From an uncultured Nitrospira sp. (GTDB taxonomy: Bacteria > Nitrospirota > Nitrospiria > Nitrospirales > Nitrospiraceae): a stretch of DNA of 36,391 nt. The stretch is taken from assembly GCA_902500785.1 (NCBI GenBank), contig CABVRW010000038.1:1-36391 (forward strand). The letters are read 5' to 3'. The position numbers and the translations under genes are program-made. The notes below the pieces were generated by a model. That model saw only the letters and a list, made by a program, of their open reading frames with translations, had not been told where the DNA came from and did not search any database. This document shows positions 9,416 through 14,377 of the stretch, one piece after another. How positions within the stretch are numbered: the stretch's first letter is position 1; every line of letters begins with the position of its first letter.

Positions 9416-10414
9416 TCAGCGGCCGGACAATTCTTCAATGACCGCGGCGGCCAGCAGCGGCACCATGATCTCGTGATGGCCGGTCAATGCGTATCCCTTG
9501 CCGCCCTTCTGGGTGGGGCGGCGCACGACGTTCGTCATGGGACGATAGTGCGTGAGGAAATCCATGTTCACCGTCGTGATGTTCGTCAACGGATGCCCGA
9601 GGTTCCGCCCGAGCGAGACGGCTTTCAAAAACACTTCGGGCAAAATCACGGCGGATCCCAGATTGAGATACACCCCGCCTTCCATCCCGGAGACCACCGC
9701 TGCCAGCCGACGAAAATCAAGCAGCGAGCCTGCCCCGATCGCGGCGCCGTCGGCAGAGGGATGCATATGGATGATGTCGGTCCCGACGGCCACGTGCACG
9801 GTGACGGGGAGGCCCAGCCTGAAACCGGTGGCGAGGAGGCTGGTGGCGCGATGTGGAAATTGCTGCTTGCGTCGAGCGATGTAACCTCCGAGTGCTTCGC
9901 CAAGGCCCTGGCCGTCTTTCATGCCTAGACTGATAGCGTCATTGAGCATGCGGCCGGTTTCTTCTGCCATGCCGAATCGACCGGAGTCGATCTCCGCGTC
10001 CACCTCTTCGGAGGTGTGTCCCATGAACGCCAGTTCGAAGTCATGGATGATCACGGCGCCGTTCATGGCGAGGGCGGTGACGATGCCGCGTTCCATCAGG
10101 TCCACGAGGAGCGGGCCGAGTCCCACCTTCACCACATGGGCGCCCATCCCCACAATGACCGGGCGGCCGCGGCGATGGGCCTTGGCAATGGCCTGCGCCA
10201 CCTCGCGCAGCGTCTTGACCGCCAGGATATCGGGGAGGGAGCCCAGAAAACGTGCGAACGATCCACCACGTCTCCAGACCTTGGCAAAGTTCGAGACCTG
10301 GACCTTGCTATGACGTCGTTGGAGTGGATAGGTCTTCAGGCGCGAGGCATCGATCGGCGGGATGATCGCTGGGGGCGCGGAAGCTGCAGTGGGACGCTTA
10401 CGCCTGGTTGGCAA
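9416..10414 (-). CDS. Conserved protein, possibly deoxyhypusine-synthase-like
   Basis: About 332 aa. The core resembles deoxyhypusine synthase-like proteins: VIVGMGAHVVKVGLGPLLVDLMERG is followed by ALAMNGAVIIHDFELAF, matching a pattern of glycine-rich nucleotide-binding turn, then a His-Asp pair. Later blocks are HPSADGAAIGAGSLLDFRR and GGVYLNLGSAVILPEVFLKA. No eIF5A substrate is expected in bacteria, so if the relation is real the substrate would be something else. It directly follows gmhA, and the coding frame overlaps the gmhA end. No ATG exists near the start of the conserved region; a TTG at 10414 has GAGGA 8 nt upstream, while an ATG at 10447 has no ribosome site. The family call is from motif memory only. 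Confidence 0.5.
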   Translation of the reverse strand: MPTRRKRPTAASAPPAIIPPIDASRLKTYPLQRRHSKVQVSNFAKVWRRGGSFARFLGSLPDILAVKTLREVAQAIAKAHRRGRPVIVGMGAHVVKVGLGPLLVDLMERGIVTALAMNGAVIIHDFELAFMGHTSEEVDAEIDSGRFGMAEETGRMLNDAISLGMKDGQGLGEALGGYIARRKQQFPHRATSLLATGFRLGLPVTVHVAVGTDIIHMHPSADGAAIGAGSLLDFRRLAAVVSGMEGGVYLNLGSAVILPEVFLKAVSLGRNLGHPLTNITTVNMDFLTHYRPMTNVVRRPTQKGGKGYALTGHHEIMVPLLAAAVIEELSGR

Positions 10415-10976
10415 GAACGTGATCCTCAATGAGCTCGCAGAGCACATGGCCCAATGTGATGTGACTTTCCTGAATACGGGCAGTCAGCGTGGAGGGCACG
10501 ACGAAGGCATACTCGACCATGCCGGCCAGCTTGCCGCCTGATCCGCCGGTCCAGGCGACCGTGGTGAGGCCCATGGATTTGGCCGCCTCGACACCTTTCA
10601 ACACATTGGGGGAGTTGCCGCTGGTGCTGATCGCGATCGCGACGTCGCCCTGCTGCCCATGCGCGCGCACCTGGCGGGCGAAGAGCTCCTCAAACCCATA
10701 GTCGTTGGCGATGCAGGTAATGGCCGCGATGTCGGTGGCGAGGGCAATGGCCGGCAACGGGGCGCGTTCGCGCTTGTACCGGCCGACAAACTCGGCGGCG
10801 ATGTGCGCGGCATCGGTGGCGCTACCGCCGTTGCCGAAGAGCAAGACTTTGTGTCCCGCGTGAAAGGCGCGGCCCAGGAGTTGCGCGACCTGCACGATCC
10901 TGTCGGCATGCTCCCGCGCGAAACGCCGCTTGATCTCGGCGCTGTCGTCGAAGGCCTTGATGGCAAGTTCTTTCAT
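10398..10976 (-). CDS. gmhA: Phosphoheptose isomerase (sedoheptulose 7-phosphate isomerase)
   Basis: This 192-aa SIS-domain enzyme should convert sedoheptulose 7-phosphate to D-glycero-D-manno-heptose 7-phosphate, the first step to ADP-heptose. Diagnostic blocks are KVLLFGNGGSATDAAHIAAE, the SIS phosphate site AIAISTSGNSPNVLKGVEAA, and ESHITLGHVLCELIE with the C-terminal catalytic-region histidine. The length and layout match GmhA rather than the related DiaA, although the two families are close. It lies 55 bp downstream of the SPFH gene on the same strand, and its end overlaps the start of the deoxyhypusine-synthase-like gene, implying translational coupling. rfaE2 lies farther down the same strand. 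Confidence 0.9.
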   Translation of the reverse strand: MKELAIKAFDDSAEIKRRFAREHADRIVQVAQLLGRAFHAGHKVLLFGNGGSATDAAHIAAEFVGRYKRERAPLPAIALATDIAAITCIANDYGFEELFARQVRAHGQQGDVAIAISTSGNSPNVLKGVEAAKSMGLTTVAWTGGSGGKLAGMVEYAFVVPSTLTARIQESHITLGHVLCELIEDHVLANQA

Positions 10977-11030: not shown

Positions 11031-11969
11031 TTACTTTCCCGGCGGCGGGGGCGAAGACCGTTTCGTGATCATATTCATCGCCAGCGCCAGCATGGAGCCC
11101 ACGTCGGCGACATTGGCCGGCAGCACGAGGGTGTTGCTGGTCTTGGCCAGCTCACCGAACTGGCCGATGTACTGTTCGGCGACGCGCAGCTGGATCGCCT
11201 CATAGCCGCCGGGAATCTGAGTGGATTCAGCGACCCTGCGGAGGCCTTCGGCGGTAGCGGTGGCAATCGCCGTGATGGCGGCCGCCGCGCCTTCCGCTTC
11301 GTTGATCTGCTGTTGCTTCCTGGCTTCCGAGGCCTTGATCACCTGCTGCTTCTTGCCTTCCGCTTCGTTGATCGCGGCATCCCGTTCGCCTTCGGAATTC
11401 AGGATCACCGCGCGTTTTTCCCGTTCCGCGCGCATCTGCTTTTCCATCGCATTGAGCACATCCTTGGGCGGCGTGATGTTCTTGATCTCATACCGGAGCA
11501 CCTTGACGCCCCAGGGCTCCGAAGCCTTGTCGAGTTCGTTGACGACCTGGGCATTGATGTTGGTGCGTTCTTCGAAACTCTTGTCGAGATCGATCTTGCC
11601 GATCTCACTGCGCAAGGCGGTCTGGGCGAGCTGGGAAATGGCGAAGCGGTGGTCGCTGATGCCGTAGGAGGCGCGCTGGGCGTCGAGCACCTTGAGGTAC
11701 AGGATGCCGTCCACTCCGACCTGCACATTGTCCCGCGTGATGCAGACCTGTTCCGGGATGTCGATGGCGGTTTCCTTGAGGGAATGTTTGTATTGAACGG
11801 CGTCGATGAAGGGAATCAGGATGTGGAACCCCGCGCCGAGGGTGCGCGAGTAGCGGCCTAGCCGTTCGACCACGTAGGCGCTTTGCTGGGGCACGATGCG
11901 GGCGGTCTTGGCAATGACCAGCACCACCAGGAAGGCGAGGAAGATCATGACCATCAAGCCGCCGGACAT
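11031..11969 (-). CDS. SPFH/Band 7 (stomatin-like) membrane protein
   Basis: 312 aa, starting at the ATG at 11969, which has GGAGGA 7 nt upstream. One N-terminal membrane segment (GLMVMIFLAFLVVLVIA) is followed by the SPFH domain (RIVPQQSAYVVERLGRYSRTL ... GFHILIPFIDAVQYKHSLKE ... VCITRDNVQVGVDGILYLKV). An Ala/Glu/Lys-rich coiled coil (about residues 190-250) comes next, and the C-terminal part resembles QmcA/stomatin. These proteins form large oligomeric membrane platforms, often with NfeD partners. Here nfeD is immediately upstream, 34 bp away, so the two form the usual SPFH-NfeD pair. The extreme C-terminus is proline-rich. Confidence 0.92.
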   Translation of the reverse strand: MSGGLMVMIFLAFLVVLVIAKTARIVPQQSAYVVERLGRYSRTLGAGFHILIPFIDAVQYKHSLKETAIDIPEQVCITRDNVQVGVDGILYLKVLDAQRASYGISDHRFAISQLAQTALRSEIGKIDLDKSFEERTNINAQVVNELDKASEPWGVKVLRYEIKNITPPKDVLNAMEKQMRAEREKRAVILNSEGERDAAINEAEGKKQQVIKASEARKQQQINEAEGAAAAITAIATATAEGLRRVAESTQIPGGYEAIQLRVAEQYIGQFGELAKTSNTLVLPANVADVGSMLALAMNMITKRSSPPPPGK

Positions 11970-12003
11970 ACCTGTCTCCTCCATAAGAAATTACTCCCTC
12001 ACG

Positions 12004-12438
12004 CTATTCTGATTTGAGCCAGAGGGCGAGGCCCTCGACCCGCTCCACGAGACTGCGTTGTCCCTTGAGGAGACCGGTCGGGCCGAGGTTGTGGGCGGTC
12101 CAGGCCGTCCCGCGACACTCGGCCTTGCCCGTGCTGCCCGGCGCCAAATTTTCCATCGGGATGGCGATCTCGCCGACCATCGTATCGATGGGTGGGCCGA
12201 CGGACTCGTGCGACTTGATCATTCTCAGCAGCGGACCACGGAAGATGAAGAGCGAGGCCACGGACATGACCGAGAACAGCAGCCACTGGATCCATTCGGA
12301 GGCAACCAGTTCGACGCCTGCGAGGGCGGCCACCACCAGGGCTGAGAGGCCGAAGAAGAGGATGTAGAAGCCGCCGGGTGTGGTGATCTCGACACCCAGC
12401 AGGATCAATCCCAGAAATGCCCAGAGCCACCAGGTCAT
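12004..12438 (-). CDS. NfeD-like membrane protein
   Basis: 144 aa; the ATG at 12438 has GGAGGAGAG upstream. Three hydrophobic segments (MTWWLWAFLGLILLG, GGFYILFFGLSALVVAALAG, WIQWLLFSVMSVASLFIF) are followed by a cytoplasmic or periplasmic OB-fold tail (about 80-144) containing GEIAIPMENLAPGSTGKAECRG. This is the short NfeD1b-type layout without the ClpP-like protease domain. It is paired with the downstream SPFH gene and probably co-transcribed with it. The promoter should lie in the 142-bp gap shared with the divergent CARF-HEPN gene. Confidence 0.88.
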   Translation of the reverse strand: MTWWLWAFLGLILLGVEITTPGGFYILFFGLSALVVAALAGVELVASEWIQWLLFSVMSVASLFIFRGPLLRMIKSHESVGPPIDTMVGEIAIPMENLAPGSTGKAECRGTAWTAHNLGPTGLLKGQRSLVERVEGLALWLKSE

Positions 12439-12580
12439 CGTCTCTCCTCCCCCGCCGCGCCCAGCCAGGTCGCATTGGAATTCACGCGGAAGTCTATGCG
12501 TCTTTTTCGAGACCGTCAAGGATCGTGCGCAAACCGTGGTTCGTTGAAGCGGCTGGAGTGCAGTGGTATAGTCCGCCGTT

Positions 12581-13837
12581 ATGCCTGCGGATACCCCGGT
12601 CAAAGCACTCATCCTGGCGTTCACCGACGCGCCGACGCTCGCCGCCTATGTCATCAACCGGCTGCAGCCGGAATTGCTCTGCTTTTTCATGCCGGAAGCG
12701 GCGAAAGTGCAGGTCGAGGAGGCGGTGCAGCCGCTCGTGCAGCAGATGCCGAAGCGCTGGGATTGGGTGGTCACACCCGATCCGGCCGACGTCATGGCCT
12801 GCCATCAGGCCTTGTCGCGCACGATTCATGATCTCTTTCGAAATTGGGCGGTGCAGGTGGGTGACGTGGTGGTGGATTTGACCGGAGCCACCCCCGCCAT
12901 GGCGGCGGCGTTGGCGATGGTGAGTCAACCCTGGACCTCTCGGGTGATCAGTCTGGTCGATGCGACGGGGCGCGAAGCGGGTGAGACGATCACCATCGGC
13001 GAGCGTTCCAAGCAGTGGCTCCAAGGCAATCCCTGGGACGAGTCGGCGGTCGTCGTGCGCCGTGAGGCCAGTGACGCGTTTAACCATGGATCGTTCAAGG
13101 CCGCCGCCACTCTGTTTCACACATTGGAGGCTCGTGTCAGCGGGGGGCAGAAGCCTCTCTACCGTGCCTTGGGCGAGCTGGCGACGGGCTATGGGTTATG
13201 GGAGCAGTTCCACTATCGCCAGGCCTGGGAAAAACTTAAGACCTCGCTGAAAGCGCTCGACATGGCGTCCGTCTGGGGTGGGCCGCCCGGGTTGAAAGCG
13301 CTGCTGCCGTTCATCAAAGCCAATACCGGATTTTTGGAAAAGCTGGTGCTGGATCCCGCTGAGGTGAAAGACGGTGTCGTGCTCGATTTGTTGGCGCATG
13401 CCCATCGTCGCGCCCATGTAGACCATGACTATGAGCGGGCCATGGTGGCGCTCGTGCGCGCCATGGAGGCTTGTGCCCAGCGGCAATTGTTCAAGCAGCA
13501 CAAGATCAAGACCTGGGACGTGCAGCCGGAGCAACTCCCCGAAGCGATGCGCGACACCTGCCGCACCTGCTACCTGGATGATGTGGATGGGAAGTATAAG
13601 CTGCCGTTGCAGAGTCAATTCCGGGCATTAGCCGGACTCGGCGATCCGATAGGGCAGGCCTTCCTTCGCGATTGGCCCAAGATGAAACCGCTCTTCGATG
13701 CCGCCGATCATGCCGTGTTGGGCCACGGGTTTGAGGCGATCAAGTCCGAGCGGGTGCAGCAGCTGTCCGATGTGGTAATGAAACTCAGCGGCGTGAGCGA
13801 GTCCTCGCTGCCGAGGTTTCCGATGCTTGGTCTGTAG
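12581..13837 (+). CDS. Orphan CARF-HEPN protein, CRISPR-associated Cas02710/Csm6-like
   Basis: 418 aa. The N-terminal part looks like a CARF (Rossmann) domain: beta strand KALILAFTD, then PELLCFFMPEA, and the ligand-loop motif VVDLTGATPAMAAALAM (D99-T104), matching the D-x-TGGTK-x-M signature of this family. The C-terminal half follows the TIGR02710/PF09670 pattern: DYERAMVALVRAMEACAQ (about 283-300), then IKTWDVQPEQLP, and near the end AADHAVLGHGFEAI, where relatives usually read RN-x-SILAHG. The HEPN histidine (H382) is present but the arginine seven residues before it is Ala375. In Csm6-like proteins these domains bind cyclic oligoadenylate and cleave RNA. No CRISPR array or cas gene is in the window. 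It is divergent from nfeD/SPFH. The family call is from motif recognition, without a search. Confidence 0.72.
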   Translation: MPADTPVKALILAFTDAPTLAAYVINRLQPELLCFFMPEAAKVQVEEAVQPLVQQMPKRWDWVVTPDPADVMACHQALSRTIHDLFRNWAVQVGDVVVDLTGATPAMAAALAMVSQPWTSRVISLVDATGREAGETITIGERSKQWLQGNPWDESAVVVRREASDAFNHGSFKAAATLFHTLEARVSGGQKPLYRALGELATGYGLWEQFHYRQAWEKLKTSLKALDMASVWGGPPGLKALLPFIKANTGFLEKLVLDPAEVKDGVVLDLLAHAHRRAHVDHDYERAMVALVRAMEACAQRQLFKQHKIKTWDVQPEQLPEAMRDTCRTCYLDDVDGKYKLPLQSQFRALAGLGDPIGQAFLRDWPKMKPLFDAADHAVLGHGFEAIKSERVQQLSDVVMKLSGVSESSLPRFPMLGL

Positions 13838-13975: not shown

Positions 13976-14377
13976 ATGGAAATCAGGATTTACTACGAAG
14001 ATACCGACTGCGGCGGCGTGGTGTATTACGCAAACTATCTCAAATACTTCGAACGCGCGAGGACCCAGTATCTCGAAGAACGGGGGTTGTCGGTCGCCGC
14101 GTTGCGCGACGGCGGGACGCAGTTCATGGTCGTGCATGCGGAGCTCGACTATCGATCGCCGAGTCGTTATGGTGAGACCCTGATCATTGAGACAACGTTG
14201 CCGGTCGTGAGCCAAGCCTCTTTCACCGTCGCCCATGTCCTGCGGGAACAGACGAGCGGGCGCCTCGTGGTTGAAGGGTCGGCCAAGCTCGTGACCGTAG
14301 ATGACCGCTTGAAAGTGAAGCGGCTCGACAAACCTATCCTGGCTGCGTTACAAGGACCTCCACAGACGAGGAGTTAA
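13976..14377 (+). CDS. ybgC: YbgC/4-hydroxybenzoyl-CoA-type acyl-CoA thioesterase
   Basis: 133 aa with the hotdog-fold signature right at the N-terminus: IYYEDTDCGGVVYYANYLKYFERART, including the catalytic Asp of the DTD block. The family hydrolyses short- to medium-chain acyl-CoA; in many proteobacteria ybgC opens the tol-pal operon. No tol or pal gene is seen here, so the cellular role is open. The stop codon TAA overlaps the ATG of a 37-aa membrane peptide by one base, a sign of translational coupling. The start has no strong ribosome site. Confidence 0.9.
   Translation: MEIRIYYEDTDCGGVVYYANYLKYFERARTQYLEERGLSVAALRDGGTQFMVVHAELDYRSPSRYGETLIIETTLPVVSQASFTVAHVLREQTSGRLVVEGSAKLVTVDDRLKVKRLDKPILAALQGPPQTRS

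Follow-up and report, generated by a model that had tools for sequence, protein, structure and literature searches.

A core CARF-HEPN protein of the Nitrospirales that lacks the HEPN arginine and CARF lysine of Csm6, probably recruited from type III CRISPR defence

Introduction

Csm6-type CARF-HEPN proteins are ancillary effectors of type III CRISPR systems, in which a CARF domain senses cyclic oligoadenylates and a HEPN domain cuts RNA. The residues on which these activities depend have been defined in the Thermus thermophilus enzyme, where each of the substitutions R415A, N416A and H422A abolishes RNase activity (PMC10897365, PMC4748810) and K137A abolishes cleavage of cA4 (PMC4748810, PMC10897365). 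Wherever CARF-HEPN proteins turn up they are taken for defence effectors, and annotation models label the protein described here as CRISPR-associated. Here, we analyse this protein in a 36,391-nt stretch of DNA (the window), which is contig 38 of a 3.9 Mb, 99.6% complete genome of an uncultured Nitrospira sp., and describe the loss of sensing and cutting residues in what is a core gene of the order, carried by nearly all of its members as a single chromosomal gene, a combination that suggests the recruitment of a defence protein to a housekeeping job. The original prediction, made for this single copy, had noticed the altered HEPN motif but missed that the loss is ancestral and order-wide, that the CARF lysine has gone too, and that a ybgC gene is the conserved same-strand downstream neighbour. 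In the literature on Nitrospira with CARF/HEPN or Csm6, a search that did not extend to the CARF classification paper (10.1093/nar/gkaa635, PMC7498327), we found no report of a two-site loss across the order.

A Csm6-type protein by profile and by fold

The gene (12581..13837, + strand, ATG start) encodes a 418-residue protein in three parts, all on the same strand: a CARF domain over residues ~1-146 (12581..13018), delimited from DSSP of the model and from alignment columns, a 6H helical linker over residues ~147-265 (13019..13375), recognised by PF22205, and a HEPN domain over residues ~266-418 (13376..13834), recognised by PF09670 and in the model. Its assignment to the TIGR02710/PF09670 family, proposed from sequence motifs, is borne out by profile searches: TIGR02710 matches at 2.7e-38 (131.9 bits, curated cut-off 83.9), PF09670 at 1.4e-17 over residues 267-403 (64.3 bits, cut-off 27) and PF22205 (Csm6_6H) at 7.8e-12, while the PADLOC model PDLC01812 (CARF1--CARF_HEPN) matches over the full length at 2.3e-244 (808 bits). 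Pfam, NCBIfam and PADLOC concur on a Csm6-type CARF-6H-HEPN protein and, as the family is already in the PADLOC CARF catalogue, the protein does not represent a new sequence family.

The predicted structure leads to the same place. An AlphaFold2 monomer model built from a 71-sequence alignment (pLDDT 93.6, pTM 0.85) contains the whole three-part fold, and its top matches among solved structures are Csm6 proteins along their whole length, T. thermophilus Csm6 being first (8jh1, Z 21.3 over 388 residues). A search of solved structures with the single sequence returned chance-level matches only; the alignment profile did reach Csm6. By analogy with Csm6, the protein would work as a dimer. Its closest named relatives come from Nitrospira sp. 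(96% identity) and Ca. Nitrospira defluvii (92%). A typical Nitrospira protein of this kind is also encoded on a public contig titled uncultured Nitrosospira (L047, CAADGK010000056.1), where the organism label is probably wrong.

Loss of the HEPN arginine and the CARF lysine

Profile alignment places residues 375, 376 and 382 of the window protein opposite Arg415, Asn416 and His422 of T. thermophilus Csm6 (chain numbering offset by 3), confirming that His382-Gly383 is kept and that Ala375 stands in place of the HEPN arginine. The relic motif, A375-D-H-A-V-L-G-H382-G383 (13703..13729, + strand), reads R-N-x-S-x-L-A-H-G in active relatives, and with Ala375 the window protein lacks the R-x4-6-H ribonuclease motif of Csm6 and Csx1. 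The CARF-like motif of the original prediction, VVDLTGATPAM, was found at residues 97-107; its core, D99-L-T-G-A-T-P105-A-M107, corresponds to D/N-x-T-x-G-T/S/K-K in the 19 relatives outside the Nitrospirales clade, and Pro105 aligns with Lys137 of the Thermus enzyme.

Both replacements extend across the order. Among 98 aligned homologs, arginine at residue 375 is found in none of the 79 Nitrospirales orthologs, the check on orthologs that the original prediction had proposed, and in all 19 relatives outside the clade, which comprise four sequences of another Nitrospirota lineage (f20), three intermediate sequences and 12 CRISPR-type copies; alanine takes its place in 75 of the orthologs, with valine, serine or threonine in the others. 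The CARF ligand lysine at position 105 is divided in the same way (0/79 against 19/19), being replaced by proline, alanine, serine, threonine or valine, whereas the outside relatives have RNxSxLAHG or something near it in HEPN and a CARF motif ending in lysine (GTK or similar). A count by regular expression, which needs no alignment, reproduces the split. Altogether, 11 positions that are near-invariant outside are lost within the clade, five in CARF (G15, S38, G103, K105, R130) and six in HEPN (N273, D286, R290, Y292, R375, A381), and 38 alignment columns, among them those of Trp60, Trp62, Trp312 and Trp365, are newly constrained in the Nitrospirales form. Relocation of the HEPN arginine within the window protein was rejected, since the active-site position has no arginine and Arg276 and Arg293 are common to active relatives.

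The original prediction held that the nuclease may be inactive or rewired, and for the window protein the loss of these residues makes inactivity the probable outcome. We regard it as improbable that the protein still cuts RNA through a changed active site in which His382 acts together with other residues. His382 is kept in all 62 of the f1 and f2 sequences, and a HEPN family without the arginine but with the histidine has been listed (PMC3710099); however, the window protein lacks the asparagine that follows the arginine as well as the arginine itself, the second HEPN helix has lost D286, R290 and Y292, and in 9 of the 17 f3 sequences the histidine has become Q, Y, A or N with the gene still in the same place. 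In the f2 clade (L097, L099 and L129; two f2 sequences and one labelled f1) the relic motif is RSPLGHGF, and an arginine at position 377, five residues before the histidine, makes a possible second R-x4-H motif of different spacing. Only one further sequence, of f1 and with RGILGHGF, has this arginine, and the motif may thus be rewired in some members.

The main rival reading is a rewired sensor-regulator, in which CARF would bind a different small nucleotide and the arginine-less HEPN dimer would bind RNA without cutting it; such a protein is compatible with exaptation and differs in its present function, and we give it a minority chance. The CARF fold is for the most part retained, as are D99, T101, T104 and M107, the HEPN loop (D373-A374, L380-G381-H382-G383-F384) is almost invariant in 46 sequences, and HEPN domains without conserved polar residues have been proposed to bind nucleic acid (PMC3710099). 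Against this, CARF is the least conserved part of the protein (95% identity is reached in 10% of its columns, and in 25-29% of those in the other parts), and the five lost CARF positions are among those near-invariant in relatives.

A vertically inherited core gene

In a tree built with the motif columns left out, the Nitrospirales orthologs form one clade (support 100/100) on a long stem (0.78), sister to the f20 sequences (100/97), and the loss of the arginine maps as a single change on that stem. The gene tree mostly tracks the groups f1, f2 and f3, where the f1 label of one sequence, L054, was assigned by default. An exception is genome G009, whose copy (L129) is of f2 type under a family f1 label, through either transfer or a mis-binned contig.

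Within the family, a homolog is present in 159 of 175 genomes and in all 22 genera, 145 of these genomes having a match at E<1e-90; the rest are mostly contig-end fragments, and in a few genomes probably only a separate CRISPR-type paralog was matched. Across the order the count is 176 of 197 genomes (140 of the 151 good genomes), with no homolog in family f4 or in some of f2. Against most congeners its dN/dS is ~0.06-0.09, close to that of the neighbouring GSU2086-family and ybgC genes, with 0.21 against the closest congener (L031), a comparison at low divergence; the 6H linker is the most constrained part (~0.04). A near-universal, vertically inherited and constrained gene of this kind is unlike the usual behaviour of mobile CRISPR accessory genes. 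A pseudogene or sequencing error was rejected, as the reading frame is intact in most family genomes and dN/dS is low. Two orthologs contain an in-frame TGA (G016:C8:2454-3629 and G076:C13:320211-321311), possibly an early loss or an assembly error.

Separation from type III CRISPR systems

As the original prediction had noted, there is no CRISPR array in the window: no CRISPR-like repeat was found in its 36,391 nt. The genome-wide search for cas10 and arrays that it proposed brought to light one array, of 11 repeats (~36 nt each), beside a Cas4g/Cas1g fusion of type I-G near the end of contig C55 (L152:13057-16040), a different contig from that of the CARF-HEPN gene and not adjacent to it. 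No RAMP gene was found in the source genome, and the sole, weak cas10 match there was rejected as RNase Y. Type I systems are not known to produce cyclic oligoadenylate. Over the order, type III (RAMP) genes occur in 10 of 197 genomes, while 13 of the 14 genomes outside the order that have the intact form also have RAMP genes; these 14 were chosen for bearing a homolog and are not a random sample, and the contrast applies only to the genomes compared. The linkage to, or co-occurrence with, cas10 or RAMP genes by which type III ancillary effectors are recognised is thus absent for this gene.

The original prediction had offered two alternatives, a CRISPR-independent sensor or a partner acting at a distance with a type III system; the second was not supported, and the protein is uncoupled from type III. 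Action in trans with a type III system encoded at another site in the genome seems to us very improbable. The protein shares its fold and family with type III ancillary effectors, and intact relatives in three genomes (G399, G403, G371) lie within ~5 kb of RAMP genes, but the source genome offers RNase Y and a type I-G locus in place of type III genes, the lysine for cyclic oligoadenylate is lost, and several Nitrospirales that do have type III genes (G008, G097, G131, G204) carry an extra, intact Csm6-like copy beside the altered core copy.

A conserved neighbourhood with ybgC

Throughout the order the gene lies in a block in which one strand carries a GSU2086-family gene and gmhA, and the opposite strand carries the CARF-HEPN gene followed by ybgC. 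In the window these are a GSU2086-family protein (9416..10447, - strand; NF052581, 445.6 bits), which travels with gmhA; the divergent GmhA-like SIS-domain sugar isomerase (10398..10976, - strand), conserved in f1 and f3; and, downstream, a YbgC/FadM-family acyl-CoA thioesterase (13976..14377, + strand; TIGR00051 over cut-off). The gap between the CARF-HEPN gene and ybgC is 138 bp in the window. It spans 5-24 bp in f3 and 23-31 bp in f2, and most f1 gaps fall at 0-160 bp or around 430-550 bp; the short gaps make a shared transcript likely in many lineages.

Between gmhA and the CARF-HEPN gene, part of f1 only has an insert of SPFH/Band 7 and NfeD-like genes (11031..12624, - strand; the NfeD-like coordinates are from the longest start, the true start probably being near 12440). 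The pair is indeed divergent and upstream in the window, as first described, and accompanies about half of the family loci. The membrane-linked response that was suggested on this ground did not hold up and is, in our judgement, most unlikely, as none of the f2 and f3 loci read contains the pair, many f1 loci are without it too, and ybgC and gmhA stay where it is missing.

The thioesterase gene and the CARF-HEPN gene are also absent together. All 17 tested Nitrospirales genomes without the CARF-HEPN protein are also without this ybgC, and 10 of 11 with the protein have it, the exception being G192, which has the protein and no ybgC match (Fisher 8e-7 on the assumption of independent genomes, which these are not). 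Among genomes that lack both genes, the gmhA site is assembled only in G132, G202 and G209, with ~5 kb beyond it, and there both genes are missing. Part of this pattern could come from single deletions that took out the two neighbours together, or from contigs that were not assembled. Several of the genomes that lack both genes (G132, G202, G209, G181, G177 and G183) are small, at 1.7-2.1 Mb, and some of the losses may reflect genome reduction; G139, G092 and G221 are large. G330 and G368, which belong to other orders of the class, possess ybgC and lack the CARF-HEPN protein, and ybgC is therefore not dependent on it there.

Proposed origin and function

We think it likely that the protein began as a type III CRISPR alarm effector, was exapted on the Nitrospirales stem and today is a vertically inherited core protein that is not a nuclease. 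Judged by the residues lost, its HEPN cleft would have lost the ability to cut RNA, and its CARF pocket would neither bind nor cleave cyclic oligoadenylate as Csm6 does. As the fold and the emptied cleft are strongly constrained, the most likely role is one of binding or scaffolding, for RNA or for another protein, and the near-invariance of the motif loop without its catalytic arginine makes continued use of the cleft, for one or the other, probable. Linkage and shared absence make the YbgC-type thioesterase encoded directly downstream the best candidate partner, if a tentative one, and the fuller proposal, that a type III effector, domesticated on the Nitrospirales stem, now works with YbgC in envelope or acyl-CoA metabolism as a core protein without catalytic activity, is put forward with similar reserve. 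Retention of His382 in every f1 and f2 sequence, needless for scaffolding, counts against a cleft that only scaffolds, and the dN/dS of 0.21 against L031, the lack of ybgC in G192 and the Arg-377 motifs count against the exaptation proposal as a whole.

If the proposal is true, a CRISPR ancillary protein became a housekeeping factor across a whole order. Intact relatives, an altered clade and the branch of origin are all available, which makes the passage from CRISPR part to cell machinery testable, and in nitrite oxidisers and comammox bacteria, organisms important for the nitrogen cycle. For annotation, TIGR02710 matches in Nitrospira genomes call for caution before type III CRISPR immunity is inferred.

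Comparison with known systems

The PADLOC profile PDLC01812 evidently describes the family of the window protein, but the entry is without a description and does not state the inactivation, the core-genome status or the neighbour. The HEPN-T (PaREP) proteins resemble it in having a HEPN domain with the histidine and without the arginine, and differ in being archaeal and in having no CARF domain listed (PMC3710099). T. thermophilus Csm6 (5fsh, 8jbb, 8jbc, 8jh1) shares the whole CARF-6H-HEPN fold (Z 19.5-21.3 over 376-388 residues) and a profile match of 2.2e-20; unlike it, the window gene is not in a CRISPR locus, and Arg415, Asn416, His422 and Lys137 of the Thermus enzyme are Ala375, Asp376, His382 and Pro105 in the window protein. 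The orthologs of the sister clade f20 (G251, G273, G283, G259, G267), at 36-42% identity, differ in keeping both RNxSxLAHG and the GTK lysine (4/4 sequences), and four of their five genomes have type III genes. In G251 (L074:3399-12117), the intact ortholog lies beside rho, prfA and an EPSP-synthase-family gene, with an oxidoreductase pair on the other side; like the Nitrospirales gene, it occupies a housekeeping place and is not beside cas genes.
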